Shown one piece after another: positions 32,433 through 49,170 of a stretch of 64,000 bases of DNA. The position numbers and the translations under genes are program-made. The DNA is taken from positions 744,001 to 808,000 of the forward strand of contig NZ_QTJY01000001.1 in NCBI RefSeq assembly GCF_003703975.1, read 5' to 3'. Position 1 is the stretch's first letter. The number at the start of each line of letters is the position of its first letter. The DNA comes from Larkinella soli. GTDB taxonomy: Bacteria > Bacteroidota > Bacteroidia > Cytophagales > Spirosomataceae. A model generated the notes under the pieces. That model was not told the DNA's origin. It ran no database searches and worked only from the letters and a program-made list of their open reading frames with translations.

Positions 32433-32763
32433 AACCAATCACGATTAAAGTTTGAAACCCCGTAGTAAATTAAAAAGGCTATGCCTTCTTAATGAATGTC
32501 TTAATGGGGGATTTAGAAGGGATGTACTTGGGCAAAAGCTAAGCGTTTCTTTTTACCCTTGGATTAAATTATTCAGCTAGATCACCTATTTTATCTGGCT
32601 CAATTATTGATCTTTATAGATACCCAGTAAGGTATATTGGTCTCTTGATGTCCTGTTTTAGAGTCTGTCCATTTTGCTAATTCGCATTTAGCAATCGATC
32701 GACTTTCCAAAGCAGTATTCATTGCATCCAGGCGCCGAACTTACGTACCCACGAACTTGACTT
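32433..32763. other. 330-bp leader region with promoter P1
   Basis: No gene is seen. It holds the first copy of the late-promoter box (32639-32685), the inverted repeat TTGCTAA/TTAGCAA at 32674-32694, and AT-rich sequence between divergent genes. Confidence 0.6.
32639..32685 (+). promoter_or_regulatory. late promoter P1 (variant box)
   Basis: GGTCTCTTGATGTCCTGTTTT at 32639-32659 differs from the other four copies at two positions in the first half. After exactly 17 bases comes CTAATTCGC (32677-32685). The next ATG is 32764, giving a leader of about 75 nt. Confidence 0.65.
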
Positions 32764-33309
32764 ATGAACCTCTTGACAGTTCCCGTTAAGGTGTTGCCCT
32801 TGGTTGGGAAGTTTCTGTCTACGCATTATTCAACTGACCCGTTCATCATAGCAGCGGATCTGAATCCCTACTCCTCGTTTCTTTGGGCCAGCCTAGAGCG
32901 GTATCCCACTAAAAGAGACAAAATCCTGCCGGTCGGGTATGGGGACTATACGGTGGAGCTGACGCTGGGTATATCGCCCCGGATGGCCCGCCATAGTTTC
33001 GGTAAGTATCTGGCTCCCTCTAAAATAACCGCCTTTAACCGTTTTGTCAAGCAATGCTTTATGGAACGGTTAGTCCGGGAAGTTTATCTGCTGGAGGGCC
33101 ATGGCTACTACGCCAACGACGCCATCCGCAATTTTCTCGATCGCTACGACCTTCTCGAATCCGAACTGGCCCTGGACTCCGCCATTCGCTACTACCATCG
33201 CCACCGGCCCAAAGACAACTTTCCCTTCAAAGTCCGGCGCCGGCCGGCCTCAAAAGTCCTTCCTATTCTGGAGAATACTTCTTTGGACGGACCAAAACTG
33301 GTCGCCTGA
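32764..33309 (+). CDS. first late-region protein, possible regulator
   Basis: 181 residues, basic C-terminus, no recognised family. The segment ISPRMARHSFGKYLAPSKITAFNRFVKQCFMERLVREVYL is helical, and the protein is alone between P1 and P2. A delayed-early/late activator would be expected here, but the HTH assignment is guesswork. Its last codons GTC GCC TGA form part of promoter box P2. Confidence 0.55.
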   Translation: MNLLTVPVKVLPLVGKFLSTHYSTDPFIIAADLNPYSSFLWASLERYPTKRDKILPVGYGDYTVELTLGISPRMARHSFGKYLAPSKITAFNRFVKQCFMERLVREVYLLEGHGYYANDAIRNFLDRYDLLESELALDSAIRYYHRHRPKDNFPFKVRRRPASKVLPILENTSLDGPKLVA

Positions 33310-33346
33310 TGTCCTGTTTTCTGGCCGCCGGCTGCCGTAATCTTGC
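33300..33346 (+). promoter_or_regulatory. late promoter P2
   Basis: Box GTCGCCTGATGTCCTGTTTT ends at 33320; 17 bases later lies TAATCTTGC (33338-33346), and the next gene's ATG is at 33350, only 3 bases on. The -7 element is flanked by the inverted repeat TGCCG/CGGCA (33333-33337, 33346-33350). Confidence 0.75.
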
Positions 33347-33349
33347 GGC

Positions 33350-33814
33350 ATGAGTCTGGATCGATCTGGAAAGTGGAATCCCGGTGGGGGCAGCTGGCTC
33401 GAAGTCGTGCCGGCAGTGGCCATTCAAGAGTATGCACGATCAACTGTCGCAGCCGCCCCCACCGTGACGCTCCGCTCGGGCTGGACCTGGAAACGCATCT
33501 ACTGCACCCAGGGCACGCTCCAGTACCGGGATCAAACCAAAGAGACTGAGAACGGCTATCTTCATGAGCTGGAGATCCGGGGTTTTGCTCCGGATGATTC
33601 CGCCGGCAAGGCCATGCTCATCGACGAGCTGCTGCAGTACCGCCGGTTCTTGGTGCGCTTCCGGGATAATGCCGAATTGACCCGTCTGGCCGGCACGCCC
33701 GTCGAAAGTCTTTTAATGGAGATGGAGCTGGGCACCGACTCCGAAGTACCTGGCCAACGTGGCTATCAACTCAATTTTACCGGCACCCTGACCGCACCGG
33801 CCGCTTATGAATAA
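33350..33814 (+). CDS. phage structural/assembly protein
   Basis: 154 residues beginning MSLDRSGKWNPGGGSWLEVVPAV. Beta-rich, with ELEIRGFAPDDSAGKAMLIDELLQYRRFLVRFRDN. No named family was recognised; its place before the protease suggests a head or neck component. The start lies just after the P2 -7 box, so the mRNA is apparently leaderless. Overlaps the next gene by 8 bp. Confidence 0.6.
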   Translation: MSLDRSGKWNPGGGSWLEVVPAVAIQEYARSTVAAAPTVTLRSGWTWKRIYCTQGTLQYRDQTKETENGYLHELEIRGFAPDDSAGKAMLIDELLQYRRFLVRFRDNAELTRLAGTPVESLLMEMELGTDSEVPGQRGYQLNFTGTLTAPAAYE

Positions 33815-35126
33815 CCGCCATTCCATTGCAATTTCCGAACTGACCTCCGGTCCCTGGCTGATTGATGCCCACGCCGGCCATTTGGCGTTTCAGACGCTGA
33901 TGGAACATGGGGCCCCGGTGGACAGTGTGGTCCGGCCGGCCGAACGGAAAATGGGATTTATACCCCTGGTGGGGCTGGACCTTCCGGATCTCACCAACCA
34001 GGTGTACCTGGCACTGGGCGAGGTCCCTACGCAGGCCGGCGTGCTGGTGATCGAATACGATGGGCTGCTTTACAACTACTCTTCCCGCTGGATCGAAGCC
34101 GAGCTCCGCTGGGCAGACCGTACGCCGGAGATCCTCGGGGTGGTTTTGAAAGTTTCCGGTCCGGGCGGGCTGGAGCACGCGGCCTACCGGGTCAGCGATG
34201 CCGTAGCCGAACTGAAAAAGCCGGTGGTCATGTACTGTGACCATGGTTTGCTGGGCAGCTCCTGGTACCTGGTAGCCTGCCACTGCGACCAGATCGTGGC
34301 CAGCCGTCCGACCGATGAGATCGGGTCGATCGGTGTGTACTGCACCTTTCAGGACTGGTCGGCCGGCTATAAAAAATCCGGGGTGGTCGTCGAGGATATC
34401 TACGCCGAGCAATCCACAGAGAAAAATTTAGAGTACCGCAGGGCCAAAGACGGCGATTTTCAGCCCATGAAGGCGCTGATGACCCAGAAGGCCGAACGGT
34501 TCATTGAAGACGTAAAAAGCCGCCGTCCGGGCGTCAAAGCGACCAAAGCCGGTGATCCTTTCAAGGGGGGTCTCTTTACCGCCGACGTCGCCCTGGAGCT
34601 GGGCCTGGTTGACCAGGTCGGCACCCTGAGCGAAGCCTACGCGACTGTATTGACCCTGATGGTCGAATCTTCCCACGCACAAACCAATCCCGATACCATG
34701 TTTGGATACATGAAACTGGCGGCACTGCTGGCCGTCAAAGGGCTGACTGCCGAGCAGATCACCCAGGAACAAATCGATGCCATCAACGCCGAGCTGACGG
34801 CCAACGGCATTCAAGGACTGGCCCTCGTCAGTCAGGCTCAGTTTGCCTCCGCCGTTGAATCCGCGAATGGATCCACCGGCCTGCAGTCGCAGCTGATGGC
34901 CCAGACGACGCAACTGGCCACGATCACCGCCGAACGGGACACGCTGAAAACGCAGGTGGCCTCTTTGGAAGCGAAAGTGACCGAGCTGGGCGGTGCCCCG
35001 GGCGCCGATCCGACCAACCCCAACAAAACCGTAACTGAAACTCCGGTAGGCGAAATGACGGCCGATAAATTGATTGCCAGCCTGCCCCACAACCAGGAGT
35101 TTGCGAACCTGCCCTACCTGAAATAA
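33807..35126 (+). CDS. S49-family prohead protease with scaffold-like C-terminus
   Basis: 439 residues. The SppA/S49-type (ClpP-fold) N-terminal part has GLLGSSWYLVACHCDQIVASRPTDEIGSIGVY, containing the candidate nucleophile Ser and the family's IGSIGV strand. After about residue 290 comes a helical, Gln/Ala-rich segment (ERDTLKTQVASLEAKVTEL) ending with a KLIASLPHNQEFANLPYLK tail, typical of protease-scaffold fusions that guide and then trim the capsid. Located just before the capsid gene, as in other tailed phages. Confidence 0.8.
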   Translation: MNNRHSIAISELTSGPWLIDAHAGHLAFQTLMEHGAPVDSVVRPAERKMGFIPLVGLDLPDLTNQVYLALGEVPTQAGVLVIEYDGLLYNYSSRWIEAELRWADRTPEILGVVLKVSGPGGLEHAAYRVSDAVAELKKPVVMYCDHGLLGSSWYLVACHCDQIVASRPTDEIGSIGVYCTFQDWSAGYKKSGVVVEDIYAEQSTEKNLEYRRAKDGDFQPMKALMTQKAERFIEDVKSRRPGVKATKAGDPFKGGLFTADVALELGLVDQVGTLSEAYATVLTLMVESSHAQTNPDTMFGYMKLAALLAVKGLTAEQITQEQIDAINAELTANGIQGLALVSQAQFASAVESANGSTGLQSQLMAQTTQLATITAERDTLKTQVASLEAKVTELGGAPGADPTNPNKTVTETPVGEMTADKLIASLPHNQEFANLPYLK

Positions 35127-35127
35127 C

Positions 35128-35235
35128 CGCAACGGCGGACCGTCGCAGCCGCGGACGGCCGCAGTGGCGACGGCCGCGTGGGCGGTCCCACCGCCGTTGC
35201 GAGACCACCGCAGCCGCGGACGGCCGCAGTGGCGA
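35128..35235. repeat. GC-rich hairpin and 27-bp direct repeat between protease and capsid genes
   Basis: CGCAACGGCGGACCG (35128-35142) pairs with CGGTCC-ca-CCGCCGTTGCG (35183-35201). A 27-bp unit starting CGCAGCCGCGGACGG occurs identically at 35144-35170 and 35209-35235, 65 bp apart. The element lies in the leader of the capsid gene. Confidence 0.7.
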
Positions 35236-35278
35236 ACCCCCTACCCTGAATTTTAAGCAACCCTATTTCAAAACACTA

Positions 35279-36223
35279 ATGAACGTAGCTGACATTATCA
35301 CCGAGTACGGTGCCTACTACCAGGATCGGGGCCAGAACCTGGCCAGCCTGTACCAGGTCGCCCGGCAACCGTTCGTCTCCGAAGCTGCCTTTACCCCGGT
35401 GGTCACGGACGAAACGATCTGGACAGCGGCCAAATCCACGTTCACCCGCATCGTTCAACCGTTCCAGAAGGCTTTCACACCGACGGGTACGTTAAAATTC
35501 AGCCCGGTGAGCATTCAGATGTTCCACCTGAAGGCCGATACGGAAGAGTATCCGGATGACCTGGAGGCTACCTACCTGGGCTTCCTCTCCAGCGCCGATC
35601 TGCGCCGGGCCGACTGGCCGTTTATCCGCTATTACCTGGAGAAAGAGTTCTTCCCCCAGATCCAGCAGGATATGGAGCTGAACGAAATCTTCAAAGGGGT
35701 ATACGCTGCCCCGACCCCGGGAACGCCCGGCCTGGTGTCGACTTCCATGAATGGTCTGAAAAAGACCATTGGTGACCACATCACCGCTGGCCGGATCACC
35801 CCCATCACCATGGGCGCGATCCCGACCTCAGACGCTGATTTCGTCACCTACCTGGAGGACTTCGGCGATCTGATCGACAAGAAGTACTGGAACGGCGCCA
35901 TGCAGATCAGTATGTCTCAGGATCTGGAGCGCAAATACCAGCGCGGTCTCCTGGAGAAATACGGCAAAAACACCGTGGGCAACGAGCAGAACCTGACGGT
36001 GAAGTTCACCAACCTGACGGTGAAAGGTCTGTCCAGCCACAACGGCTCGAGCCGGATCTGGACCACGCCGAAGGCCAACGCCGTCGTGCTGAAGAAAAAG
36101 ACCCAGAACACGAAGCTGGTTGACATCCAGTCCGTCGATCGCCAGGTAAAATTCCTGACCGACTTCTGGTACGGTGTCGGCTTCATTCTGCCAGAGATCG
36201 TTTTCTGCAACGACCAGGTTTAA
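35279..36223 (+). CDS. major capsid protein
   Basis: 314 residues. No exact match is recalled, but the position directly after the protease-scaffold gene, the length, the soluble mixed alpha/beta composition and the extended N-terminus (ADIITEYGAYYQDRGQNLASLY) fit an HK97-type major capsid protein. It is flanked by strong RNA hairpins, as is common for highly expressed capsid genes. Confidence 0.65.
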   Translation: MNVADIITEYGAYYQDRGQNLASLYQVARQPFVSEAAFTPVVTDETIWTAAKSTFTRIVQPFQKAFTPTGTLKFSPVSIQMFHLKADTEEYPDDLEATYLGFLSSADLRRADWPFIRYYLEKEFFPQIQQDMELNEIFKGVYAAPTPGTPGLVSTSMNGLKKTIGDHITAGRITPITMGAIPTSDADFVTYLEDFGDLIDKKYWNGAMQISMSQDLERKYQRGLLEKYGKNTVGNEQNLTVKFTNLTVKGLSSHNGSSRIWTTPKANAVVLKKKTQNTKLVDIQSVDRQVKFLTDFWYGVGFILPEIVFCNDQV

Positions 36224-36263
36224 GGTTCCCTTCGATCAAACAACCTCTGACCCATAGCAATAT

Positions 36264-36292
36264 AGCTCGGCAACTCCTCCAGTTGCCGGGCT
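36264..36292 (+). promoter_or_regulatory. hairpin after the capsid gene
   Basis: AGCTCGGCAACT-cctcc-AGTTGCCGGGCT forms a 12-bp stem with one wobble. There is no T-tract, so it is more likely an mRNA stabiliser or processing site than a full terminator. Confidence 0.5.
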
Positions 36293-36303
36293 GCTTAGAG
36301 CCC

Positions 36304-36636
36304 ATGGCAAACGAAACGAAAGCCGCTGAAGTGACTGTTGAGTCCCTCCAGCAAGAACTCGCCAATAAAAGCGCCGAACTGGCCGAAGCCCAGCAAATCA
36401 TCGACGGTCAGGCCCAGACCATTGCCGAGCAGCAGGAGCTGCTGGACAAACTGCAGGCCAGCCCCTCGAAGGTGCCCACCTTCACGCTCGGCAAAAAGAT
36501 CTACGAAGTCCATGCCCCTTCTTTCCAGGTGGGCAAGGAGACCTACACGGTCGAAGCGCTGCTGAAGGATAGGACGCTCCAGAAGGAACTGGTGCAAAAA
36601 GGCGTCGGATTTATCAACGAAAAAGTCGAAGAATAA
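36304..36636 (+). CDS. small phage protein with coiled coil
   Basis: 110 residues from ATG 36304 (MANETKAAEVTVESL). A strong coiled coil at about 8-55 (QQELANKSAELAEAQQIIDGQAQTIAEQQELLDKLQA) is followed by a beta segment. Probably a head-associated protein. Confidence 0.6.
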   Translation: MANETKAAEVTVESLQQELANKSAELAEAQQIIDGQAQTIAEQQELLDKLQASPSKVPTFTLGKKIYEVHAPSFQVGKETYTVEALLKDRTLQKELVQKGVGFINEKVEE

Positions 36637-36637
36637 C

Positions 36638-37180
36638 ATGGGAGGCACCTACAGCTCCATTAAAGCACTGCCGGCGGTCAACCGCATGGGTGGTACGCAG
36701 CAGAAAATCTTCCTGGCCCCTTATGACGACTTCACGACGCTGCAGAAGCCGGATTCGGCCGCTACCAATGTCGCTGATCGGTATAAGATCGCCACGGCGC
36801 ACGTATTAGGTACGGGCAAAGGCTTCATTGAAGTCTATGTGACGAAGGACACCGGCGAGCTGACGATGGAAACCATCGGCGGGCCGGACCGCAACTCGTT
36901 CCTAGCGAAGGGTAAGTTCTACCACCCAGGGGAAGCCGACGAGATCGTGGCCTTCCAGAACCAGGCCAAGAACGACCGTTTCATTCTGCTGGTCCCCCTT
37001 CCGGGAACCAATGAGCTGATCCAGGTCGGCAGCGAACAGTTCCAGGTGCAGATCAAACCGTCCTACGCCACGACCACCAACGGGGGCGACGGCCGGGGTA
37101 CGATGTTCGAATACGAATGTTACTGCCCGGATCTGATCAAGTATACGGCGGCTACCATTCCGATGAAACCTGCCTCGTAA
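36638..37180 (+). CDS. probable major tail (tube) protein
   Basis: 180 residues, beta-rich, with GTGKGFIEVYVTKDTGELTMETIGGPDRNSFLAKGKFYHPGEADEIVAF, a pattern resembling tail-tube proteins of Bacteroidota phages. Its stop overlaps the next ATG (TAATG). Confidence 0.5.
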   Translation: MGGTYSSIKALPAVNRMGGTQQKIFLAPYDDFTTLQKPDSAATNVADRYKIATAHVLGTGKGFIEVYVTKDTGELTMETIGGPDRNSFLAKGKFYHPGEADEIVAFQNQAKNDRFILLVPLPGTNELIQVGSEQFQVQIKPSYATTTNGGDGRGTMFEYECYCPDLIKYTAATIPMKPAS

Positions 37181-37380
37181 TGGCCCGCAAACCCCAATCC
37201 CCCGAAAGCCAGCCGCCTGGGGCTGGCTTTCGTCTTACCGGGCTGGATCCGGAGACCGAAGTGGTCTATGTGCCGCTGACCGGCCGATCCTATGTCCTCA
37301 GCGACCTGACGGCCGATGAAGCCCAGCAGTTGATAGCGCTGAAATGGCCTCACATCGAAGTCGTGGAATCGGTCGCCTGA
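37180..37380 (+). CDS. small phage protein
   Basis: 66 residues; the ATG is nested in the preceding stop codon. It ends GTC GCC TGA, which is also the start of promoter box P3. No family was recognised. Confidence 0.55.
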   Translation: MARKPQSPESQPPGAGFRLTGLDPETEVVYVPLTGRSYVLSDLTADEAQQLIALKWPHIEVVESVA

Positions 37381-37417
37381 TGTCCTGTTTTTTAGTGACG
37401 GCCCGTCCCATTTTTGC
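37371..37417 (+). promoter_or_regulatory. late promoter P3
   Basis: Exact box GTCGCCTGATGTCCTGTTTT (ending 37391), a 17-base spacer, then CATTTTTGC (37409-37417). The next gene begins at 37544, and a terminator lies between. Confidence 0.7.
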
Positions 37418-37420
37418 AGT

Positions 37421-37512
37421 CTACCGCTTGAGCGGTTCCAGCAGGGTGGGTAACGATCGTCTAACGTTTATCCTCGAATAGCGGCCGGCCACACTCGGAC
37501 CGCTATTTTTTT
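37421..37512 (+). ncRNA. candidate 90-nt small RNA or attenuated leader
   Basis: Between P3 and the ATG at 37544 there is a palindrome ACCGCTtgAGCGGT (37423-37436) and, at 37477-37512, an intrinsic terminator. The predicted product would be a short RNA unless RNA polymerase is made termination-resistant. Confidence 0.35.
37477..37512 (+). terminator. intrinsic terminator inside the P3 leader
   Basis: AATAGCGGCCG / CGG-a-CCGCTATT hairpin followed by seven T. It sits upstream of the terminase genes, so they need readthrough, antitermination or another promoter. Confidence 0.75.
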
Positions 37513-37543
37513 ATAACAACCTAGATAGTTAACCCCCTGATGT

Positions 37544-38176
37544 ATGCTCGAGGAAAACGTGCGCACGTGGCTCCAGCAGCCCCAGGATTATTCGGCAGGT
37601 CTGGCGCTGGTCAGGCAGGCCGGAATTCTGTCTTTCTTCACCCTCCGCTTACTGGAGCGGGGAGCGGATGCTTATACCCGAAGCCGGCTGCAGCAGGAGC
37701 TGACCGCCTGGCTGGTCGGCCGTCCGGCCTCCACTCCAGTAGGAAAGGTTACAGTGGCCCTGCCGGCCACGGAGGACCTGCTCCGTCCCCTGGAGGCAGA
37801 GTCCTATCAGCTGATGGACGAGCGCTCCGAACTGAAGGCCCACCTGAGGGCCACCCAGGAGGATGATACAGCGCTGGAAGCCCGCCGGCTGTGGGCTTAC
37901 CGAATCTTGGCCATCACCCGCCAATTGGATGAGCTTTACAGCCGGATGGATTTCGCCCGGGAACACGGCTACCTGCCTCTGGAGAACGACGAGGAAGAAG
38001 TAAGTGAGACCCAGCAGCTGCTGAATCTGAGAACCTACATCAGCCGCTACCAGGGCAAGCTCCGCCGGCCGGGCCTGTCGCCCGATCAACAGCAGAAGTA
38101 CCAAGCCCTGCTGGACCAGTACCGGGCGGAAAAGCAGCGGCTCGAGCGAAAGCTCACCCATCCCCTTTTGATTTAA
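37544..38176 (+). CDS. phage protein with coiled coil
   Basis: 210 residues, helical, rich in Gln/Leu/Arg; the C-terminus (QQKYQALLDQYRAEKQRLERKL) is a coiled coil. No family was recognised. It precedes the small terminase by 6 bp. Confidence 0.5.
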   Translation: MLEENVRTWLQQPQDYSAGLALVRQAGILSFFTLRLLERGADAYTRSRLQQELTAWLVGRPASTPVGKVTVALPATEDLLRPLEAESYQLMDERSELKAHLRATQEDDTALEARRLWAYRILAITRQLDELYSRMDFAREHGYLPLENDEEEVSETQQLLNLRTYISRYQGKLRRPGLSPDQQQKYQALLDQYRAEKQRLERKLTHPLLI

Positions 38177-38182
38177 TTTCTT

Positions 38183-38752
38183 ATGAAATCGGAATCCGAA
38201 CGTTTTCAGGAGGCTTTTGACCATATCATGCGGTGGTACCGCTCGGACGGTCAGAAGCCTCTTTCTCCTCCTCTGGAGGCCCGTCGCCTGCGCTGGGTAG
38301 CCGCCCGCGAATACATCGTACTCTACAAGCCGCTCACCGACTCGGAAATCGTCAAATACCTGGCCAAAACCTACGGCATTTCCGAGCCGCAGGCCTGGCG
38401 CGATGTTCGCGACACGAAGCGGTTTTTTGCGACCATGGAAGCCGTCGACAAGGAGTTTGACAAGATCATGCTCATCGCCCAGATCAAAGACCTCCGCACG
38501 AAAGCCATCCTGCTCGAAGATTATAAAACGGCGGCTAAATGCGACGAGAACCTGATCAAACTGGGCCATTTCGACCAGCCCGGGGAAGGTGGCCCCGCCG
38601 GCAAAACCATTGTCCTGAGCATTGACTTCAACCCGGCCCGAATCGGCGCCAAACCGATCCCCAACCTTCAGCAGATGGTGGAAAAATTCATTGGCGAGCG
38701 GGCCAGGCGGGAATTGATGATCGATGATACCGATTTCGAGGCCGTATCATGA
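38183..38752 (+). CDS. probable terminase small subunit
   Basis: 189 residues with an N-terminal helical DNA-binding-like region (EIVKYLAKTYGISEPQAWRDVRDTKRFF). It overlaps the large subunit gene by 4 bp. Position, size and HTH-like segment support TerS; direct family recognition is weak. Confidence 0.65.
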   Translation: MKSESERFQEAFDHIMRWYRSDGQKPLSPPLEARRLRWVAAREYIVLYKPLTDSEIVKYLAKTYGISEPQAWRDVRDTKRFFATMEAVDKEFDKIMLIAQIKDLRTKAILLEDYKTAAKCDENLIKLGHFDQPGEGGPAGKTIVLSIDFNPARIGAKPIPNLQQMVEKFIGERARRELMIDDTDFEAVS

Positions 38753-40452
38753 GCAATTTGATTAAGCTACCCTCCTCCTCGCTGCTTCCACCGGCGGAAG
38801 CCTTCCAGGGGGAGGCCGAAACCGATCACCGGGAGCTGCACTTTAACTACATCCAGCTGCTGTGCCTTCTCATCGGCGCCCAGCACCTGAAAGCCGTCGC
38901 CGGCCGCGGTACCGGTAAGTCTGAGGGCATCCTGGCGCCCCGGGTGCACACCCTGGTCGAGAAAATGCCCCGCTCCTCTCTGGTGGTGGTCGGCACAACC
39001 TACATTCAGCTTCTGGACCGAACGCTACCAGCACTCTGGAACGGCCTGCACAAGCTGGGCTACGAGCGGGACGTCGACTATTGGGTCCGGCGTTTTCCGG
39101 ATAAAAAACTCAAGCTGGAGCTGCCCTACAACTGCCCGCTGGATCCCCAGCATGCCATCTTCATCCGAAACGGCAATACGGTGACCGCCCTTCGCCTTGT
39201 GGGTCAGGACCGGCCCGGTACCGCCAACGGTCTTTCGGTCAATGCCATCCTGGGCGATGAGGCCAAATTCCTCAATAAAGAAAAGCTGGATTCCGAGGTC
39301 ATGGCCATCAACCGGGGCGATAATGAACGCTTTGGCGAGATCGCTGAGCACCACTCGACGACGTTTACTACGGATATGCCCACCAGCCGGGATGCCCGGT
39401 GGATTCTGGAAGATGAAACCGAATGCCTGAAACCGCATCACCAGAAGGCCATCCGGCTGATCCTGGCCGTCCAGCTCCAGATCTACACCGAAAAGCAGAA
39501 GCTGCAGCGCCGGCCAGGCAATCAGTCGGCCATCGCCCGGATCCGTCAATACGAACGGATGCTCAACGAACTGAGAAAGGGCTTGGTACATTTTGCCGAG
39601 GCCTCCTCTTTTGCCAACGTGCACGCCCTGGGTCTGCAGTACTTCAGGCAGCTCTACCGGACGCTCAACCCGGCTACCTGGAACGCCAACGTCCTCAACA
39701 ACCGGGTGCGGGGGGTAAAAAACGGCTTCTACCCTCACCTCCAGGGCACTAAGCACTACTACGACAGCATCGACTATGCCTATGTGGATAGCGTTGATTT
39801 TGGCGTGAAGGGCTTCAATGACTGCCGGAAGGATGGCGATATAGACCCTAATCAACCCCTGACGATCGGGATGGACTATGGCTCCTCGTTCAACTGTATG
39901 GTGGTAGGCCAGCGAGTTGGGAATGAGGTGCGGTACCAGAAGATCTTTTATGCCGATGGTAACTATAAGATCCATCACGTGGTCCGCCAGTTTACCACCT
40001 ACTACCGCTACTTCTACCGGAAGGAAGTGACCTACGTTTACAACCATACGGCGATCGGTACCGATGGGAAGAGCGATATTACCTATGCCAGTGAGGTGAT
40101 CGATACCCTGGAGAAGGAAGGCTGGAGCGTGCGCCAGGTGTATACCGGGCAGACCGAATCGCACATGTCCCGGTACCTGGCCTGGAACATCGCCCTGTCG
40201 GAAGAGGATGACCGCTTCCCCCGCCAGCGCTTCAACCGGGAGAACACCCGGGTGCTGGTCGACGCCATGCATGATGCCGGCACCAAGGAAGGCAGTAAGG
40301 GCTTCCGGAAGGATAAGAATGCCGAGCGGGATCCGGACGTCGACCAGAGTACGACGACCCACCTGACCGATGCTGCCGATGAGGTGTTCTACTACCTAAC
40401 CATTACTGAGCTAGGCATCGAGGATCTGTTGCCTTTGGCATTCAGTCAATAA
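38749..40452 (+). CDS. terminase large subunit
   Basis: 567 residues. Walker A is GRGTGKS (52-58). A Walker B-like stretch VNAILGDEAKF follows, then an RNase H-like nuclease domain starting near ..LTIGMDYGSSFNCMVVG, with acidic residues further on (HTAIGTDGKSDITYA, DPDVDQSTTTHLTDAADEVFYYL). It packages DNA into the prohead. Its stop marks the left flank of the AT-rich cargo. Confidence 0.88.
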   Translation: MSNLIKLPSSSLLPPAEAFQGEAETDHRELHFNYIQLLCLLIGAQHLKAVAGRGTGKSEGILAPRVHTLVEKMPRSSLVVVGTTYIQLLDRTLPALWNGLHKLGYERDVDYWVRRFPDKKLKLELPYNCPLDPQHAIFIRNGNTVTALRLVGQDRPGTANGLSVNAILGDEAKFLNKEKLDSEVMAINRGDNERFGEIAEHHSTTFTTDMPTSRDARWILEDETECLKPHHQKAIRLILAVQLQIYTEKQKLQRRPGNQSAIARIRQYERMLNELRKGLVHFAEASSFANVHALGLQYFRQLYRTLNPATWNANVLNNRVRGVKNGFYPHLQGTKHYYDSIDYAYVDSVDFGVKGFNDCRKDGDIDPNQPLTIGMDYGSSFNCMVVGQRVGNEVRYQKIFYADGNYKIHHVVRQFTTYYRYFYRKEVTYVYNHTAIGTDGKSDITYASEVIDTLEKEGWSVRQVYTGQTESHMSRYLAWNIALSEEDDRFPRQRFNRENTRVLVDAMHDAGTKEGSKGFRKDKNAERDPDVDQSTTTHLTDAADEVFYYLTITELGIEDLLPLAFSQ

Positions 40453-40600
40453 GTATTTTACATACAAATAGTTTTTTCTAGAAATTCTCTTCTCTGCATG
40501 CGGTTTATTTAAAAAGTTCTCAATTTTTTTACTAAAATACCCTTTACAGTATTTTTTAATCAATTTAGAAAAAATAAAATGTCTTGCACAACCAAATAAC

Positions 40601-41611
40601 ATGAAAATCACAGAAGCTTTAATTAAAGCAATCAAAGAAAGGCAAGAAAAATTAACAGAAACTGACCAACTTAATGAAAATATTATAGACGCAGTTAACT
40701 TAATAAATCAAGAGCTCTTAAAACAAGGAATAAGGAGTACCATCAATAAAGACGACATTGAATTTAGCCCCGAATTCTTATGGGAAAAAACCTACTTTTC
40801 ATGGGATCCTAAATTAAAAAGGAATTTAATTCTAAGGAAAAGAAATTTAAGCAATATTATCTTCAATCACTATTATCCTAGTCCTTCAAATACCACATTT
40901 TATCATTTTACAAGCTTAAAAAATTTTGAAAGCATTGTTAAAAATAAAGAATTGTGGCTTTTCAACTTATTAAAACGATTTAACCAAGGAGAATTTCGGT
41001 ATTTCTATAAAGATCATGGGCTAACAGGCTATAAGATAAACTCTGACATTGATGGAGTTATAATGGAGGAGTCGCTAATGAGTAAAGCTTTCTACATTTC
41101 ATTCGCAAGGTCTTCATCAATTAAAATTGATGAAGAGGAAGATTTATGGACTAGCTTTGGTGAAAGTGGCCATGGAGTAAGAATAGAGTTTGATATTGTT
41201 CCAAAAATATCTGATTTCAGAAACATATTTTATAAAGATGACAAAACACCGATAAAAGATCTCTTAATCAATAAGCTATCAAAAAAGATCAAGAAAAAGT
41301 TCAAACGTAACTTTATGATTTCTGGAATATCAAAAATTGGAGGTTTCTATTTACATAGTGACTTAAAAATAGAAAATGAAACAAGGCTACTAATAAAAGA
41401 GTACTCAGACGAATACGAATTCAACTTTACAAAATTTCCTAGTATTGGAAAAGTAAAATATATTAAGCTAAGGTTTGACTCTGATTATGCTGAAATTAAA
41501 ATAAATTCAGTTCAGCCTGGCATTTACTGTAATGAAGATAAAGTGAGAGAAGTTTTTGAAAAGTATCCTTTAGCATATAATCCTAGCATAGTAAATAAGC
41601 CAAACTTCTAA
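40601..41611 (+). CDS. DUF2971-like protein, prophage cargo
   Basis: 336 residues. It shows the two DUF2971 landmarks FYHFTSLKNFESIVKNKELWLFNLLKRFN (about 103-131) and YISFARSSSIKIDEEEDLWTSFGESGHGVRIEFD, with an N-terminal helical extension of about 95 residues. No biochemical role is established that I know of. The gene is markedly AT-rich and Lys/Ile/Asn-rich, unlike its neighbours, a sign of recent acquisition. It pairs with the DUF3800-like gene 77 bp downstream. Confidence 0.65.
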   Translation: MKITEALIKAIKERQEKLTETDQLNENIIDAVNLINQELLKQGIRSTINKDDIEFSPEFLWEKTYFSWDPKLKRNLILRKRNLSNIIFNHYYPSPSNTTFYHFTSLKNFESIVKNKELWLFNLLKRFNQGEFRYFYKDHGLTGYKINSDIDGVIMEESLMSKAFYISFARSSSIKIDEEEDLWTSFGESGHGVRIEFDIVPKISDFRNIFYKDDKTPIKDLLINKLSKKIKKKFKRNFMISGISKIGGFYLHSDLKIENETRLLIKEYSDEYEFNFTKFPSIGKVKYIKLRFDSDYAEIKINSVQPGIYCNEDKVREVFEKYPLAYNPSIVNKPNF

Positions 41612-41688
41612 ACTCGAAAACAAAAATGTTACAATTCCAATATTAGCTTCATTCAACTGTTGCTTCTTCACAATATGATGTTATAGTT

Positions 41689-42762
41689 ATGAACTCTAAC
41701 GAAAGAATTTATTTAGATGAGGCAGGAAATACTGGCCAAGATTTGTTAAATCGAGATCAGAAAGTGTTTGTATTAGCTTCAAATAACTTTTCTACTAATA
41801 AATGCGATGAAATTGTCTCATTATTTAAGAGCACCTCAGAACTTCATTTTTACAATTTGAAATCCAGTAAAGCAGGTCGAGAAGCACTTATAAATTTTTT
41901 AAATCATTATTTAATCAGTGAGGAAAACATCTTCAACGTAGTAACAAACAAAGAATACAGCGTTGTTGGGCAGATTGTGGACCTCCTCATTGAGCATGTT
42001 ATGCATAAAAAAGGCATTGATATTTATCAACACGGATATAACATAACATTAACTAATTTCATTTATTACGCTATAAAAAATTTTTGGACATATGATATGG
42101 TCTATTATTTCTTATCAGATTTTATCAAAATGATTAGATTAAAATCAAAGGAAAGTATAAAAAAGTTTTTTATGACCGTATTGGAGCTAGACGCAGTCTC
42201 AAAAAGAAACTTCTTTCTTAAGCCGATTTTAGAAAGCCAAAGTTACATAAATGATATTTTAGAACCAGTAGATAAGTTTTCGATTGATTTAACACTGCCA
42301 AGTTTTTACGTAATTTGCGATTATTGGTATAAAAAGATGAAAAATAAATTAATTATTATTCAAGACGATTCTCACCAAATGAAGCATTATAATGAAATAA
42401 TTGATTTTACAATAGGCATGGACACTGAAATTACTGAAGTTGGATACGGCGAAAAGAAAATGACGTTCCCAACACAGATTGACAAACTTCAAATGGCAGA
42501 CTCCAAAAGCAATAAAGGTGTTCAGATTTCAGACATTATTGCTAGTTCTATTGCTTTTGTGTTTAATAATAAAAACCAAAAACAAGAAAAATTTGTAAAC
42601 GAAATAAAAGAATCAAAGTTATTTAATTTAAGCAATAACCATATAATATGGCCTCAAGCCATATTTACCCCAGAAGAACTTAGTCTCAATTTAAATTATG
42701 GAGAGAACATATTAGACTTTCTTGCTCAGCAAAAGCAAAAGTGGGCTGGGAGAAGTAAGTAA
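41689..42762 (+). CDS. DUF3800-like protein, prophage cargo
   Basis: 357 residues. The N-terminal IYLDEAGNTG matches the DES/AG-type start of DUF3800. Acidic residues recur in IIIQDDSHQ, and the C-terminal QMADSKSNKGVQISDIIA is the second family motif. The family is thought to have an RNase H-like fold with acidic catalytic residues, so a nuclease role is an inference. Same AT-rich composition as the DUF2971-like partner. Confidence 0.7.
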   Translation: MNSNERIYLDEAGNTGQDLLNRDQKVFVLASNNFSTNKCDEIVSLFKSTSELHFYNLKSSKAGREALINFLNHYLISEENIFNVVTNKEYSVVGQIVDLLIEHVMHKKGIDIYQHGYNITLTNFIYYAIKNFWTYDMVYYFLSDFIKMIRLKSKESIKKFFMTVLELDAVSKRNFFLKPILESQSYINDILEPVDKFSIDLTLPSFYVICDYWYKKMKNKLIIIQDDSHQMKHYNEIIDFTIGMDTEITEVGYGEKKMTFPTQIDKLQMADSKSNKGVQISDIIASSIAFVFNNKNQKQEKFVNEIKESKLFNLSNNHIIWPQAIFTPEELSLNLNYGENILDFLAQQKQKWAGRSK

Positions 42763-43281
42763 ACTACAGGACCATTTTAATATTTTTTTAATTTAAGTGG
42801 CTAGCTTCAAATTTTATTAAAATTAATAGAATACTTTATACAGTCTAATGAAGCCTCAAATTGAATTTTTAATTTCGACTATTATTTTCATATACCGTGC
42901 ATTCGGAATATTTTGCAATTGCACCGGCCGGTAGTGCGTGGCGGGGTTTTCTCTGAGGAACAGATGACCATTTTGAAAAATATTCAGAAAATTTTGCTGT
43001 TTATCAGACAATTACGCCCAAAATGTTGATAATTACGGTGAAAAAACGCTCTGCCCAAACGGCCTCCCGCGCGGTGCAATTGTTCACAGACTGAGCGAGT
43101 TAGGTCCCAAAACCGAAATTCCGGAAAATCCGACATTGACCACTTTAAATTCCAGGAATTCCGGGAATTTAGACAAAGCCCCCCTCCCCAACCCCCTGGG
43201 CAACCTGGTCGCCTGATGTCCTGTTTTCCTCGCGCCTGACGCTGCAATTTGCCGCCTGAAAATCCCCCGAACCGGGCCGGC
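42763..43281. other. right flank of the cargo, with remnant frame and promoter P4
   Basis: AT-rich up to about 42.9 kb, then normal phage composition. A start-less frame is open from about 42975 to the TGA at 43214-43216 and ends ..GNLDKAPLPNPLGNLVA, the same terminal VA-stop as genes ending in other promoter boxes. 42991-43010 repeats 19 of 20 bases of the dyad arm at 29206-29225. Promoter P4 lies at 43207-43253. Confidence 0.5.
43207..43253 (+). promoter_or_regulatory. late promoter P4
   Basis: Exact box (ending 43227), a 17-base spacer, then CAATTTGCC (43245-43253). The surrounding bases GCnGCAAtTTGCnGC form a short near-palindrome. The next ATG is 43282. Confidence 0.7.
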
Positions 43282-43641
43282 ATGAATCGTTCCGATGACC
43301 ATGTAACACACACCACCACGCTGCGAATGCTTTCCTGGCGGGAAGCGCTGGCCATTCTCGAAAGATGCGATGCGAAAGGGGGGGCCCGCCCCTTTTCCAT
43401 CACCTTTTGCACGGCCAATCCCGAGAAGAAAACGGGTGGTGAGATCATCCACTACGACAAAGCCATCTGGCACGTGCGCGGGGGCCGGGTGAAACCCCGG
43501 GCAAAAGAAGCCGTCACGGCCGAAACCAAGGGATCCTCCACCGGCCGCTGGTCCCGAAGGATCCGGGCCGTCGACAGTGACCAGATCCGGCGGGTGCATG
43601 TGCACCTGATCCTTGAAATTAACGGCCAGCCCATCAAATGA
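43282..43641 (+). CDS. small phage protein before portal
   Basis: 119 residues from ATG 43282; an upstream TTG would lie within the -7 box. Contains SWREALAILERCDAKGGARPFSITFCTANPEKKTGGEIIHY. No family was recognised; overlaps the portal start by 4 bp. Confidence 0.55.
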   Translation: MNRSDDHVTHTTTLRMLSWREALAILERCDAKGGARPFSITFCTANPEKKTGGEIIHYDKAIWHVRGGRVKPRAKEAVTAETKGSSTGRWSRRIRAVDSDQIRRVHVHLILEINGQPIK

Positions 43642-45011: not shown

Positions 45012-45934
45012 AACTGATCTTCAAAGACCTCGAGACCCTAAGGAAAGTGGTCGCCGTCAACGCCGATCTTTCCTTTGAGAACCTGGCGCCCTATCTGCAC
45101 AGCGCCCAGCTGTTCGTCGCCCGTTTTGTGGGGGAAGCCCTCGTCGACGGCCTGGCCACGGCCGTCTTTTCCAATGCGAATCTGAACCAGGTGCAGCAGG
45201 CCCTCTGGGACCGGATCAGAGTGCCGGTAGCCAACCTGGCCACGGCCAAATACGCCCGCTTCAAAAACGTGATGATCACCGACGCCGGCGTGCTGCGCAC
45301 TTCTTCCGAGCAGCAGAAAGACGCTTTTGAATGGCAGCTCAGTCAGGCCCTGGCGCAGCTGCAGGAGGAAGCCTGGCAGGGCCTGGAATACCTTCTGCGG
45401 TTTCTGGAAGAGAAAAAGGCGGATTATCCGGCCTATACGGACTCGGCCGAATACGCCACCCACCAGGCGTCCCTGATCCGATCGGCCCAGGTCTTCAGCC
45501 GGTATTACTTCATTGCCGACAGCCGGCTGACCTTCTGGAGCCTGCAGTCGTGCCTGAGGGCCGCCGAGGCCCGGGTGATCCGGCCGCTGCTCGGTAGCGT
45601 TTATGCTACCCTGCTGGCGGAGGCCAACCTGTCGGATGAGCAGACGCTCCAGCTGGACGGCGCCCGCCGGGCCCTGGCCTATGAGACCATCAGCCGGGCG
45701 CTGCGCGAACGGATTGTGGAGGTCACCGACGCGGGCGTGCAGGTCAACGCCATCAGCCAGTATACGCTCAGCCGGCACCAGACGCCGGCCTCCGACATCC
45801 GGCTGCAGCAGACGCTGGCATACATCGACCAGCAGGCGGCTGCCGCCCTGGCCGATCTGGCCGGTACCCTCACCGATCCCACCACACCTGGCAGCGGCCT
45901 GGGCGTGCAGGGGGATAAAATCATCGCTTTTTAA
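45008..45934 (+). CDS. DUF6712-like head-tail connector protein
   Basis: 308 residues, mostly helical with long Ala/Leu-rich helices (VQQALWDRIRVPVANLATAKYARFKNVMITDAGVLR). It resembles the DUF6712 proteins placed after the portal in Bacteroidota phages; the role in head-tail joining is inferred from position. Overlaps the portal stop by 4 bp. Confidence 0.55.
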   Translation: MKLIFKDLETLRKVVAVNADLSFENLAPYLHSAQLFVARFVGEALVDGLATAVFSNANLNQVQQALWDRIRVPVANLATAKYARFKNVMITDAGVLRTSSEQQKDAFEWQLSQALAQLQEEAWQGLEYLLRFLEEKKADYPAYTDSAEYATHQASLIRSAQVFSRYYFIADSRLTFWSLQSCLRAAEARVIRPLLGSVYATLLAEANLSDEQTLQLDGARRALAYETISRALRERIVEVTDAGVQVNAISQYTLSRHQTPASDIRLQQTLAYIDQQAAAALADLAGTLTDPTTPGSGLGVQGDKIIAF

Positions 45935-45960
45935 CCACCCGATATTCTGCGATTTCGCAG
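45928..45960 (+). promoter_or_regulatory. weak candidate promoter before the lysis cassette
   Basis: A T-run ending at 45932, a 17-base spacer and CGATTTCGC (45950-45958) copy the geometry of the late promoters. The near-palindrome CTGCGATTTCGCAG has the same centre relative to the -7 element as in P2 and P5. The upstream activator-like box is absent. Confidence 0.3.
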
Positions 45961-46007
45961 GATTTATCCTTGCACCAAACCGCCCAACTGCCAATAAGGT
46001 AAACTGT

Positions 46008-46280
46008 ATGCGCATCAAACCTACGAAAGCGGAAGCCCTGTGCCTGGTGATCGGCCTGGTGATCGGCACAGTGGCCTGGCTTCTGCTGCGGCCCCGCAGA
46101 ACAGCGACCCCTGCCATTACAGTGGTGGTCCCTTACGACGCCCACCGCGACAGCCTGATTCTGAAAGGAGACTCCTCGAGCCGGGCCGTCACAATCATTC
46201 AACAACGTACCCATCAAACCCTGAAAACGTATGAAGCCACGCGTCATCGCTTTGATTCTCTTACCGTTCATCTGCCTTAG
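46008..46280 (+). CDS. small membrane-anchored protein, possible spanin or holin component
   Basis: 90 residues with one N-terminal transmembrane helix (ALCLVIGLVIGTVAWLLL) and an exported tail of about 60 residues. It overlaps the next gene by 50 bp in another frame, an arrangement known from Rz/Rz1 spanins, although the topology here is not identical. Confidence 0.5.
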   Translation: MRIKPTKAEALCLVIGLVIGTVAWLLLRPRRTATPAITVVVPYDAHRDSLILKGDSSSRAVTIIQQRTHQTLKTYEATRHRFDSLTVHLP

Positions 46281-46779
46281 TCTCTCGCTTCAGGCCCAGA
46301 CGGCGGACGTTCTGCTCCTGAAAAAAGGAGCCCCTTTTCCCTTTGCCAGCGGGGCCGCCCTGGATCAGCGGGTGTATGATCAGGTGAAAGCCAAGCTGGC
46401 CGCGGCCGAGCAGCTGCGCATCGATGGCGAGAAAGCCATTGCCGACCTGAAGCTACAGATTACAGCGCTGGAAACGGCCCTGAAGGACAAACAGGCGATC
46501 ATCGAATATGATGCCCAGTCCTACCGGGAGCTGTATCAAAAATACGCGGTGGCCACCGAAGCCCTGAAGGCCGCCGACCACCAGGTGCAGCAGACTACCG
46601 ACGTCATCGAGCGGGTCAAAGCATTGCTACCCCGCAAGCTCCGGAAACGGTCGCTGACGGCTCCGGAAATCGCCCTTTCCCTAGAAGAAATGGCCGAAAA
46701 GCTTCGAAAACGCCCGCTGAAATGGGGACTGGCCGGCGCCCTGCTCGGCGCCATCGGCGCCCTGGTCATCGCCCTTTAA
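46231..46779 (+). CDS. exported coiled-coil protein with C-terminal membrane anchor
   Basis: 182 residues: signal peptide (..LSLQAQ), coiled coil at about 50-120, and a C-terminal hydrophobic helix (WGLAGALLGAIGALVIAL). It could span the periplasm as part of the lysis machinery. The assignment is from topology and from the holin- and endolysin-like genes following. Confidence 0.5.
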   Translation: MKPRVIALILLPFICLSLSLQAQTADVLLLKKGAPFPFASGAALDQRVYDQVKAKLAAAEQLRIDGEKAIADLKLQITALETALKDKQAIIEYDAQSYRELYQKYAVATEALKAADHQVQQTTDVIERVKALLPRKLRKRSLTAPEIALSLEEMAEKLRKRPLKWGLAGALLGAIGALVIAL

Positions 46780-46793
46780 CCCCTTTTACCGCT

Positions 46794-47294
46794 ATGAATA
46801 TGAACGTGCTGATTTCCAGCTTCCCCTATATCACCCTAGGCCTGGGCCTGACGCTGTTTCTGACCTGGCTTTACAGCAGCTTCCAGGGGCGCATTGCCCG
46901 TTTTGTGGCCCCGGTGATCCAGTTTCTGGCCCGCCACATCTTCGTCACCCACCTGGTGGGGCTGATCATCCTGTCGATGATCTCCCTGAGTGTGGTCATC
47001 GCTCTCAAACCGTGGGTGCTGGCCACCGATCCCAGCGCCCGACCCTACGACGAGACGCTGCTGCAGAAGGTGCCGTTGACGCTGGCCTGCCTGATGATCC
47101 TCTGCCCGGTGGCGCTGCTGATCATCCGCATCACCATGCCGGGCCAGTACGACTACCTGAATTTTTCCAACAAGGACCTGGGTCCCGACCACGACTTCAA
47201 ACAGCTGACCCCATGCCAACGACTGCTCATCGCCTTGGGCTTTTACTGCTTTATCTTATTCCTGGGAGTACAGCTCTTTACGGGCAGCCTGTAA
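46794..47294 (+). CDS. multi-helix membrane protein, candidate holin
   Basis: 166 residues from ATG 46794 with four hydrophobic helices (about 8-28, 48-72, 90-112, 144-164). It lies between the spanin-like and endolysin genes and overlaps the latter, so a holin is the best guess. No holin family is recognised. Confidence 0.45.
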   Translation: MNMNVLISSFPYITLGLGLTLFLTWLYSSFQGRIARFVAPVIQFLARHIFVTHLVGLIILSMISLSVVIALKPWVLATDPSARPYDETLLQKVPLTLACLMILCPVALLIIRITMPGQYDYLNFSNKDLGPDHDFKQLTPCQRLLIALGFYCFILFLGVQLFTGSL

Positions 47295-47836
47295 ACCAGG
47301 CCCTCTACCGGGAACGGACGGTGGCCGTCGCCCGCCAATACCTTTCGGTGCGTGAGCTGACGAGGCGCAACGATCACCCGGCTATCCAGACCTTCTGGAC
47401 GCTCATCCACCCGGCCTACTACCGCAGCCGCCCGCCCTGGTGCGCAGCCTTCGTGTATTTCTGCCTCCGCTCGGCGGGTCTGCGCCCTCCGGTGAAAACA
47501 CCGGCGCTGGCGGCAGCCTGGTACCGAAAATCGCTGACCGTCTGGACGTACAATCCCCATGGCAACCAGCGCCGGGGGGCCGAACCGCCTAAAGCGTCCC
47601 TGGTGCTCTACCAGTTTAAAACGGCCGGCGGCTACCGCATCGGCCACGTCGGCCTGCTGGCCGATCAGCGCCGAAAGGCCACCGATGATTTTATGGTGCT
47701 GGAGGGAAACACCTCGGCCGCCGGTGCCGTGGAGCTCACCGAGCGCGACCGGGAAGGCAACGGCGTCTATCTCAAACGCCGATCCCCCCGCTCCATTTAC
47801 GCCATTGTCGACTGGATCCCTATCAGTATGCCATGA
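47213..47836 (+). CDS. endolysin-like cysteine peptidase (CHAP/NlpC-type)
   Basis: 207 residues from ATG 47213, with an N-terminal hydrophobic signal (LGLLLLYLIPGSTALYG). The cysteine nucleophile lies in PPWCAAFVYFCLRSAG (Cys77) and the histidine in RIGHVGLLAD (His145), the order and spacing of CHAP-like amidase/peptidases. It would cleave peptidoglycan. Overlaps the holin-like gene by about 80 bp and the next gene by 4 bp. Confidence 0.75.
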   Translation: MPTTAHRLGLLLLYLIPGSTALYGQPVNQALYRERTVAVARQYLSVRELTRRNDHPAIQTFWTLIHPAYYRSRPPWCAAFVYFCLRSAGLRPPVKTPALAAAWYRKSLTVWTYNPHGNQRRGAEPPKASLVLYQFKTAGGYRIGHVGLLADQRRKATDDFMVLEGNTSAAGAVELTERDREGNGVYLKRRSPRSIYAIVDWIPISMP

Positions 47837-48624
47837 ACACCATCGACCTGCGTCTGCCGGCCAAGGCCCCCGTACACTTTCAGGGGCCTTCCGAATGGAA
47901 CGAAGTGACTCCCCGCCAATGGCTGCAATGGGTGCGCTGGCAGACGGACCTGGAAGGAGCTATGGCCGGCCGCTTCCTGCTGCTGCAGCTGTGGTTTGGT
48001 CTGAAGTTTCGCACCCTCAGGCTGCTGGATGAAGCCCAGCAGCTGCGGCTTCTGGAGCTGCTGGACTGGACCGATCGCCACCCTTCCCGCTGGATGCTGC
48101 CCGTGATCTGGATCCGCGGCCGGCGCTGGGTTGGCCCGGGGGATCAGCTGGAGCACCTGACCTTCGGGGAGTTCGTCTTTGCCGAGGCCGCCCGCACCCG
48201 CTACCAGGCTGCTCCCAGTCGGGAAGACCTCGAGGAGCTGGCGGCCATTCTCTACCGGCCGGCCCGCTGGCCCTGGCAACACCCGGGCGAAGGGGGCCGC
48301 AGCCGCTTTGACCGCCACCAGCTGGAGGGCCATAGAGGCCGGATGGCCGCTCTTCCAGCGGCCATCCTGAAGGGAACGCTGATCAACTACCTAGGGGCTC
48401 TCGAGCAGCTGCCCCGGGCCTTCCCGCACCTATACAAGGGGAGCGGTTCAAGTGATCAAACCTCTGGCAGCTGGCTGGATGTGGGCCTGCAGATGGCCCG
48501 GCAGACCACCGCCTTCGGCTCCTACCACCAGCTGGAGAACACCAACCTCTACCTGGTGCTGACCACGCTGGATGCCATGCTGAAAGAGAATGAAGATCTG
48601 GAGCGCAAACTGAAAGAGAGATGA
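47833..48624 (+). CDS. phage assembly protein of unknown family
   Basis: 263 residues, Trp-rich (EWNEVTPRQWLQWVRWQTDLEG, WTDRHPSRWMLPVIWIRGRRWVG). Coupled by ATGA overlaps on both sides. Not recognised. Confidence 0.5.
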   Translation: MNTIDLRLPAKAPVHFQGPSEWNEVTPRQWLQWVRWQTDLEGAMAGRFLLLQLWFGLKFRTLRLLDEAQQLRLLELLDWTDRHPSRWMLPVIWIRGRRWVGPGDQLEHLTFGEFVFAEAARTRYQAAPSREDLEELAAILYRPARWPWQHPGEGGRSRFDRHQLEGHRGRMAALPAAILKGTLINYLGALEQLPRAFPHLYKGSGSSDQTSGSWLDVGLQMARQTTAFGSYHQLENTNLYLVLTTLDAMLKENEDLERKLKER

Positions 48625-49133
48625 GCAGCCTGGAAGAATTTTATGAAGCCTACGGCCAGAGCCTGGCCACGCGCCTGGCCTCGATTGGCCACACCGAGCC
48701 CAAGCCCCGGTTCATCTTCGTTGACGAAATGGGCCAACCCGATGAGCTGATCCGGGCTACCACCAGCAAGCTGAAGGAGAAAACCAACGTGCTGGTCTGG
48801 GAGGCCTTCACCGAGCGGCTGGGCGACGGCCGGCGCGATAACTACCACACCCGGGTGATGGGCAGCCTGGCGGTCCTGCGCAAGGAAGGCACCGACACGG
48901 GTAGCCAGAAAACCGCCATCCGGATGGGCCGGCAGACGGCCCTGAAGGTGATGGCCCTGATGCTGCAGGACACGCTTGATGGGGAGCTGGCCCAGGAGGG
49001 CATCCAGCTACAGTTTGACGGCCAGGACGGGGAGAAAATCCGCCTGGCCAGCGGCTGGTGCGGATGGGGCTACACCTTCGACTGGCTGGTGGGGCTGGAC
49101 CTGACCTTAACCGAGTCGGATCTGGTCGCCTGA
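48621..49133 (+). CDS. phage protein of unknown family
   Basis: 170 residues; the final codons GTC GCC TGA overlap promoter box P5. No family was recognised; position between lysis and tail blocks suggests a tail-completion role. Confidence 0.5.
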   Translation: MSSLEEFYEAYGQSLATRLASIGHTEPKPRFIFVDEMGQPDELIRATTSKLKEKTNVLVWEAFTERLGDGRRDNYHTRVMGSLAVLRKEGTDTGSQKTAIRMGRQTALKVMALMLQDTLDGELAQEGIQLQFDGQDGEKIRLASGWCGWGYTFDWLVGLDLTLTESDLVA

Positions 49134-49170
49134 TGTCCTGTTTTTCGGCCGGGGGATGCCCGAATTTCGG
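49124..49170 (+). promoter_or_regulatory. late promoter P5
   Basis: Exact box (ending 49144), 17-base spacer, then GAATTTCGG (49162-49170). Inverted repeat ATGCCC/GGGCAT (49156-49161, 49170-49175) frames the -7 element. The preferred ATG of the next gene is 49174, 12 bases after the start of the -7 element, exactly as at P2. Confidence 0.75.

Follow-up and report, generated by a model that had tools for sequence, protein, structure and literature searches.

Within the genome of Larkinella soli (contig NZ_QTJY01000001.1 of assembly GCF_003703975.1), a stretch of 64,000 nucleotides (nt), hereafter the window, contains the late module of a prophage in which one box recurs five times, each time at the same distance from a -7-like element. 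Comparison with related prophages and isolated phages shows that these boxes belong to promoter-like elements starting late operons, made up of TGTC, 24 nt and a -7 element of the NAnnTTTG type. It also shows that elements of this form are conserved, in phage-specific versions, among phages of several Bacteroidota groups. The shared late-promoter code put forward in the original prediction, which was made from the letters of the window alone, is thus strongly supported at the level of sequence. We consider it probable (about 70%) that these are late promoters read by the host polymerase and activated by a phage activator, the family of a protein of 181 amino acids (aa) encoded in the window (32764..33309); its binding and the transcription starts are predicted. 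All features of the window described here lie on the forward strand.

The box, GTCGCCTGATGTCCTGTTTT, has four exact copies, at 33301, 37372, 43208 and 49125, and one copy with two differences, at 32640; in all five cases exactly 17 nt separate it from the -7-like element, as had been claimed. With up to three mismatches permitted, 100 shuffles of the window gave no match, and across the host genome (6,923,102 bases, 82 contigs) the five boxes of the window were the sole matches, all forward; the box pattern read backwards gave none in the same genome. The copies are therefore confined to the prophage and not scattered at random through the host genome. The first element, P1 (box 32640..32659, TGTC at 32649), begins 124 nt upstream of the 181-aa gene and has a poorly matching -7-like element, CTAATTCG (32677..32684). 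P2 (33301..33320, TGTC at 33310) lies over the stop codon of the 181-aa gene and is followed by TAATCTTG (33338..33345) and, 4 nt on, by the ATG of g2 (33350..33814), a conserved late gene of 154 aa and the first after P2. P3 (37372..37391, TGTC at 37381, -7-like element CATTTTTG at 37409..37416) and P5 (49125..49144, TGTC at 49134, GAATTTCG at 49162..49169) also lie over the stop codon of the preceding open reading frame (ORF), and the boxes of P2, P3 and P5 all encode the final residues of that ORF, VA. An ATG follows P5 at 49174, again 4 nt on; the mechanical ORF start at 49156 falls within the P5 promoter, and relatives indicate 49174 as the start. P4 (43208..43227, TGTC at 43217) has the -7-like element CAATTTGC (43245..43252), and the first ATG of the open frame behind it is at 43282.

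The claim that each box stands just upstream of a gene block holds in general, with a reservation at 37372, because a terminator-like hairpin with a T run (37476..37513; similar hairpins with T runs were seen by eye ahead of the corresponding gene in relatives) intervenes before the gene at 37544. P3 would thus yield an RNA of ~100 nt or require read-through to the next gene. This arrangement is repeated in the prophage of G135, a genome of the same genus. We did not retain the proposal that CCTG-N4-CCTG, found in four of the five window boxes and five of the six in G135, is the repeat bound by an activator: it is missing from the boxes of the other relatives compared. What is conserved is TGTC, frequently as TGTCCTTTT, with constant spacing to the -7 element, and the upstream half varies from phage to phage.

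In its general form the pattern was counted in 47 prophage regions and three phage records, 50 regions in all. With the NAnnTTTG-type element, TGTC-N24-(-7) occurred 109 times forward and 10 times reverse, against 13.45 expected from block shuffles, and each of the other spacers from 16 to 32 gave 6-13 forward matches. Boxes that repeat in register within one phage, under a broader -7 pattern, numbered 100 forward and 0 reverse. Because the pattern was formulated after part of these data had been seen, it was rerun unaltered on nine further regions, selected for a homologue of the 181-aa protein and drawn from twelve (L364, L365 and L371, 2-3 kb at contig ends, were omitted). The result was 14 forward and 3 reverse sites, 2.85 in shuffles, and again a peak at 24. 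The signal came mainly from G745 (5 forward, 0 reverse), G903 (4 and 1) and G626 (2 and 0), the last sharing the box of phage Mea and hence not independent of it; G208b gave 2 and 0, G533 1 and 2, and G332, G000b, G232 and G763 none on either strand. Five of the nine (G745, G903, G533, G626, G763) are from other orders.

For base counts we used 105 sites. From the 100 grouped sites, a pair in phage 6H was discarded as coming from a duplicated segment, together with two doubtful sites in G362a (TGGC); four G157 sites and five of Polaribacter phage Leef_1, missed by automatic grouping, were added by hand, and the sixth Leef_1 match (469) was left out. The -7 element has A at position 2 in 94 sites, T at position 5 in 99, T at position 6 in all 105 and G at position 8 in 92, all positions that the search pattern favoured. 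Position 1, which the pattern left mostly free, is C in 59, G in 30, T in 10 and A in 6. Primary sigma promoters of Bacteroidota are described in PMC7366714 as having TAnnTTTG at -7 and TTTG at ~-33. The elements studied here resemble them in the TTTG or TTCG with which most -7 elements end, and differ from that description in a first base that is usually C or G (89 of the 105) and in a fixed TGTC in place of a TTTG with variable spacer. TTTG at ~-33 is not conserved among the 105 sites, whose base counts there read TGTC followed mostly by CTTTTT.

Start codons lie close behind many of these elements. In 50 of the 105 sites an ATG lies 3-8 nt past the -7 element, and in 47 it stands at 3-7 nt and opens at least 50 codons; 29 sites have it exactly 4 nt past the element, and a second group of 21 has it at 20-22 nt. 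As background, NAnnTTTG anywhere on the forward strand is followed by an ATG at 3-7 nt in 86 of 1049 cases. Where the genes behind the sites are homologous to a window gene, they correspond to few late genes or to the 181-aa gene. Since the ATG is so near in about half of the sites, many late mRNAs may be leaderless: a transcription start ~4 nt past the element, as the name -7 implies, would leave the 3-7-nt group without a leader. The 47 of 105 sites with a close ATG contrast with the ~3.7% of 5' untranslated regions under 10 nt given for Bacteroides thetaiotaomicron in PMC7366714.

Prophages of the host's own family place the elements at corresponding genes. Of 222 genomes of this family, 12, its own counted, match the 181-aa protein, and six late modules (those of G135, G220, G194, G201, G157 and G110) are collinear with that of the window. 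G135 shares the box itself, in five exact copies and one with one difference; five stand at the places of P1-P5 and one is extra, and their -7 elements (GAATTTTG, GACTTTTG or CAATTTGC) are mostly cleaner than those of the window. The 181-aa proteins of the two prophages are only 43-48% identical despite the matching boxes. The other relatives carry their own versions at orthologous places: GTCGGTTGATGTCGTTTTTT in G220 (three copies), GATTGATTGTTGTCCTGT in G194 (four), GCTTGAGTGTTGTCATT in G201 (four, one with a difference), GTCGGTTGATGTCAT and variants in G157 (four), and TGCCCTCCTWT and variants in G110 (four, 3 nt further from the -7 element). These boxes precede the orthologues of g2, of the gene at 43249 and of that at 49174, and also the 181-aa gene except in G220, so that a box in the P1 position is found in six of the seven collinear prophages; P3 is seen in the window and G135 only. 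Scans with g2 gave two loci in one scan and one in another. The 14-mer TGATGTCCTGTTTT matched 31 of the 222 family genomes, and in 29 of these the one or two copies were taken as chance; among the matches listed for viral contigs chance is likewise probable at 14 bases.

The promoter core was found again in phages of Polaribacter, Cellulophaga and Bacteroides. Leef_1 has six copies of TGTCCTTTT forward and none reverse, each shortly upstream of an annotated gene. Five copies of ACGCTGTCCT occur in Mea, seven of TGTCCTTT forward and one reverse in Ingeline_1, five of TGTCACAA in laban6-1 and four of TGTCCTTT in Bacteroides phage BT-TP2, and the fecal phage MT835542 and a Porphyromonas prophage have three boxes each. 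In total, these seven records of isolated or named phages hold 33 phage-specific TGTC boxes forward and 1 reverse; an in-register -7 element accompanies 18 of the 33 with the pattern used for the 50 regions and 29 with a loose pattern. Under a slightly broader -7 pattern, eight phage records that encode a homologue of the 181-aa protein (three overlapping the 50 regions, one with a homologue under the threshold) gave 29 forward and 11 reverse sites with a peak at 24. Three Bacteroidota phages without a homologue, B40-8, FCL-2 and RAP44, gave 3 forward and 3 reverse sites with neither peak nor excess, and phage 6H, whose homologue is weak, had no excess of TGTC-N24-(-7) sites. A scan of viral contigs with TGTCCTTTTT-N18-CAGYTTTG returned 44 stretches, five contigs having three each, and 8 of the 44 contain a homologue. 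One record named as a cyanobacterial phage, MZ447863 (Microcystis phage Mea-Yong924-1), has a Bacteroidota-type late promoter, a terminase and a 181-aa homologue, which makes its host assignment questionable.

The 181-aa protein has no match in Pfam or PHROG at E <= 0.1, and PDB sequences gave nothing convincing (best E 0.13). Its 11 homologues matched six weak Pfam families at E <= 1 (best E 0.036; one HTH_Tnp_Tc5 at 0.042), and their PHROG matches were weak only (best E 0.012; one 'transcriptional regulator' family at 0.17). With the single sequence, tblastn found nothing in phage records at E <= 1; profiles built here did detect phage homologues missed in this way. An AlphaFold2 model from the 11 homologues (predicted local distance difference test, pLDDT, 80; predicted template-modelling score, pTM, 0.72) has a strand at 4-10, helices at 12-22 and 35-45, a strand at 64-70 and helices at 72-82 and 85-112. 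The helices modelled at 117-127 and 137-147 are read as a putative helix-turn-helix; residues 153-181 have a pLDDT under 50. No solved structure in the PDB matched the model at E <= 0.001 (best E 3.0). The best viral structure match was gp39 of Leef_1 (YP_010357040; Foldseek E 1.1e-6, template-modelling scores 0.67 and 0.77), which is also a profile homologue (E 5.7e-16) and is annotated as hypothetical. The stretch before gp39's own gene contains no box. In phage Mea the homologue gene is located behind a primase gene, outside the late module.

Extra copies of the gene were also seen. The genome G113 has one copy in a late module and ten further copies over ten contigs, each 84-95% identical to one of them; five of these contigs, of known length, measure 6-46 kb, and four stretches checked have no capsid or terminase gene. 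The extra copies are possibly a multicopy element or satellite. A second, distant 181-aa homologue is encoded in genome G000 (G000:C3:332797-333195), and the 20 kb taken there lack a TGTC-N24 site.

A homologue of the 181-aa protein is present in every one of the 34 regions that have a grouped box. Several observations weigh against the protein as reader of the box. Of the 49 regions in which a homologue is present, 15 are without a grouped box (G110 and G244 among them have boxes seen otherwise, and several are short contig ends), and G417b, G172b, G165 and 6H lack one despite having capsid and terminase genes. Four of the nine further regions are without any site, and the homologue in Ingeline_1 falls below the threshold (E 0.011-0.015) though its boxes are clear. 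Most regions were selected by the protein or a neighbouring gene, so the co-occurrence is partly built in. In Mantel tests on the 34 regions (G110 excluded, its box being 3 nt further upstream), box distances correlated with the 181-aa protein at r 0.63 and with the terminase at r 0.72; with the terminase controlled for, the helix-turn-helix part retained r 0.003 (p 0.49). The N-terminal part and the long helix kept a weak link with the upstream 10 nt under the same control (r 0.18-0.19, uncorrected p 0.01-0.02). Covariation was therefore unspecific, and we do not use it as proof of the activator. The 181-aa protein, already suspected in the original prediction, is the best candidate activator for other reasons. 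One end of it is predicted to bind DNA, it is regularly present, its gene stands behind P1 and, in Mea, apart from the late module, and a common alternative is lacking: seven window genes upstream of the late module were compared with the six collinear relatives, and none is matched in all of them.

Host RNA polymerase with the primary sigma factor would read the -7 element, and a phage-encoded activator would sit on the box, the core of which, at ~-39 to -30, would replace the -33 element. By recruiting polymerase at every box, the activator would switch on the late blocks together. That it is the 181-aa protein is the less certain step; with its gene behind P1, some initial expression could lead to positive feedback. 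At P2 and P5 the spacing suggests a start at or a few nt from the ATG and thus leaderless late mRNAs.

Because TGTC lies near the -35 place, the spacing is invariant and the -7 element differs from the host consensus in its first base, the main rival is a sigma-like role, with the box as the -35 element of an alternative sigma factor and the 181-aa protein either a diverged sigma-like protein or one that redirects polymerase to a new promoter class. Extracytoplasmic function (ECF) sigma factors are of roughly its size. The rarity of T as first base (10 of 105), unlike the TAnnTTTG of the host consensus (PMC7366714), would suit such a role. We nevertheless regard it as unlikely: Pfam gave no sigma family (sigma-70, ECF; regions 2 and 4) for the protein or its 11 homologues, and the model includes two strands and matches no solved structure at the threshold above. 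Within one phage the box is also conserved over ~20 nt, and the usual -35 element is shorter.

It seems similarly improbable that the 181-aa protein is a bystander, a conserved late gene product, and that the box is read by some other factor: a host regulator, an alternative sigma factor of the host or a different phage protein. The unspecific covariation, the 15 regions with a homologue and no grouped box, and the fact that P1 has the poorest box and -7 element of the window would fit this. A host factor, however, would not account for boxes that vary among phages of one bacterial family, nor are there copies in the host genome outside the prophage; the pattern is not in excess in the three Bacteroidota phages that lack the protein, and no upstream gene tested is common to the collinear relatives. 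We think it very improbable that the boxes are seams or other sites (cassette recombination junctions, packaging or replication sites) and not promoters. Their near identity inside one phage and the coincidence of three of the five with an ORF 3' end would be expected of seams, but the set spacing to a -7 element, the single orientation, the ATG that often follows shortly after and a place that is kept while the sequence changes between phages all argue for promoters.

As putative promoters under one activator, the elements are reminiscent of phage Mu. Mu-type activators are small proteins with a C-terminal helix-turn-helix, a likeness to the candidate proposed here. In Mu, activator C serves the late promoters lys, I, P and mom and Mor the middle promoter Pm, as described in PMC4461284 and PMC4390567. 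The proposed likeness, drawn from sequence, lies in several late-block promoters, one phage activator, the host polymerase and a box that precedes or overlaps the -35 region. Unlike in Mu, the host belongs to another phylum, the -7 element is different and many sites appear leaderless; an inverted repeat is described for Mor, and by eye the box of the window has none. The Mor family was absent from the Pfam matches of the 181-aa protein and from the weak families of its 11 homologues (E <= 1). Most likely, the system works like Mu C without being a member of the Mor/C family by profile and structure tests.

In the open-licence literature we found no late-promoter code described for Bacteroidota phages, and an earlier description elsewhere is possible. 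The main text of the paper on Leef_1, the phage with six TGTCCTTTT boxes and the homologue gp39, contains neither 'promoter' nor 'transcription' as a whole word (PMC8776804). We lean slightly towards the view that Bacteroidota tailed phages, those of the gut included, share one late system, with a TGTC core, an exact 24-nt spacer, a modified -7 element, an unrecognised family of activators that have their own fold, and largely leaderless virion mRNAs. As the box drifts with the phage lineage, prophages that share a host could be shielded from one another. The promoter signature and candidate activator would allow late operons to be annotated directly in Bacteroidota phages and would make phage-controlled expression parts available for this phylum. 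They also lead to a testable claim on leaderless translation in a phylum said to be without Shine-Dalgarno sequences (PMC6847099).

The surroundings of the elements in the window are those of a prophage late module, with the head maturation protease g3 (Peptidase_S49; 33807..35126), a homologue of the terminase large subunit (38749..40452) and a minor tail/tape measure protein; a CI-like repressor and a DUF3987 gene lie upstream. Inside the module is a low-GC insert (40500-43000; 36% GC at 40-42 kb) with a DUF3800 gene at 41689 and, at 40601, a gene that weakly matches a candidate defence family (E 0.0017). In another family of the order (f12), the box resembles TTTTTTGTGTCCTTTTT and, by eye, often stands directly after a hairpin and T run. 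Nineteen prophage regions of this family, picked by eye, have a dyad, GCATCG...CGATGC, that begins on the final base of the -7 element and reaches the start codon of the head protease gene. Pairing is kept in 98.1% of cells, and two pairs are changed on both sides, in one sequence each; the dyad may serve as an operator or form a 5' hairpin that covers the ATG.

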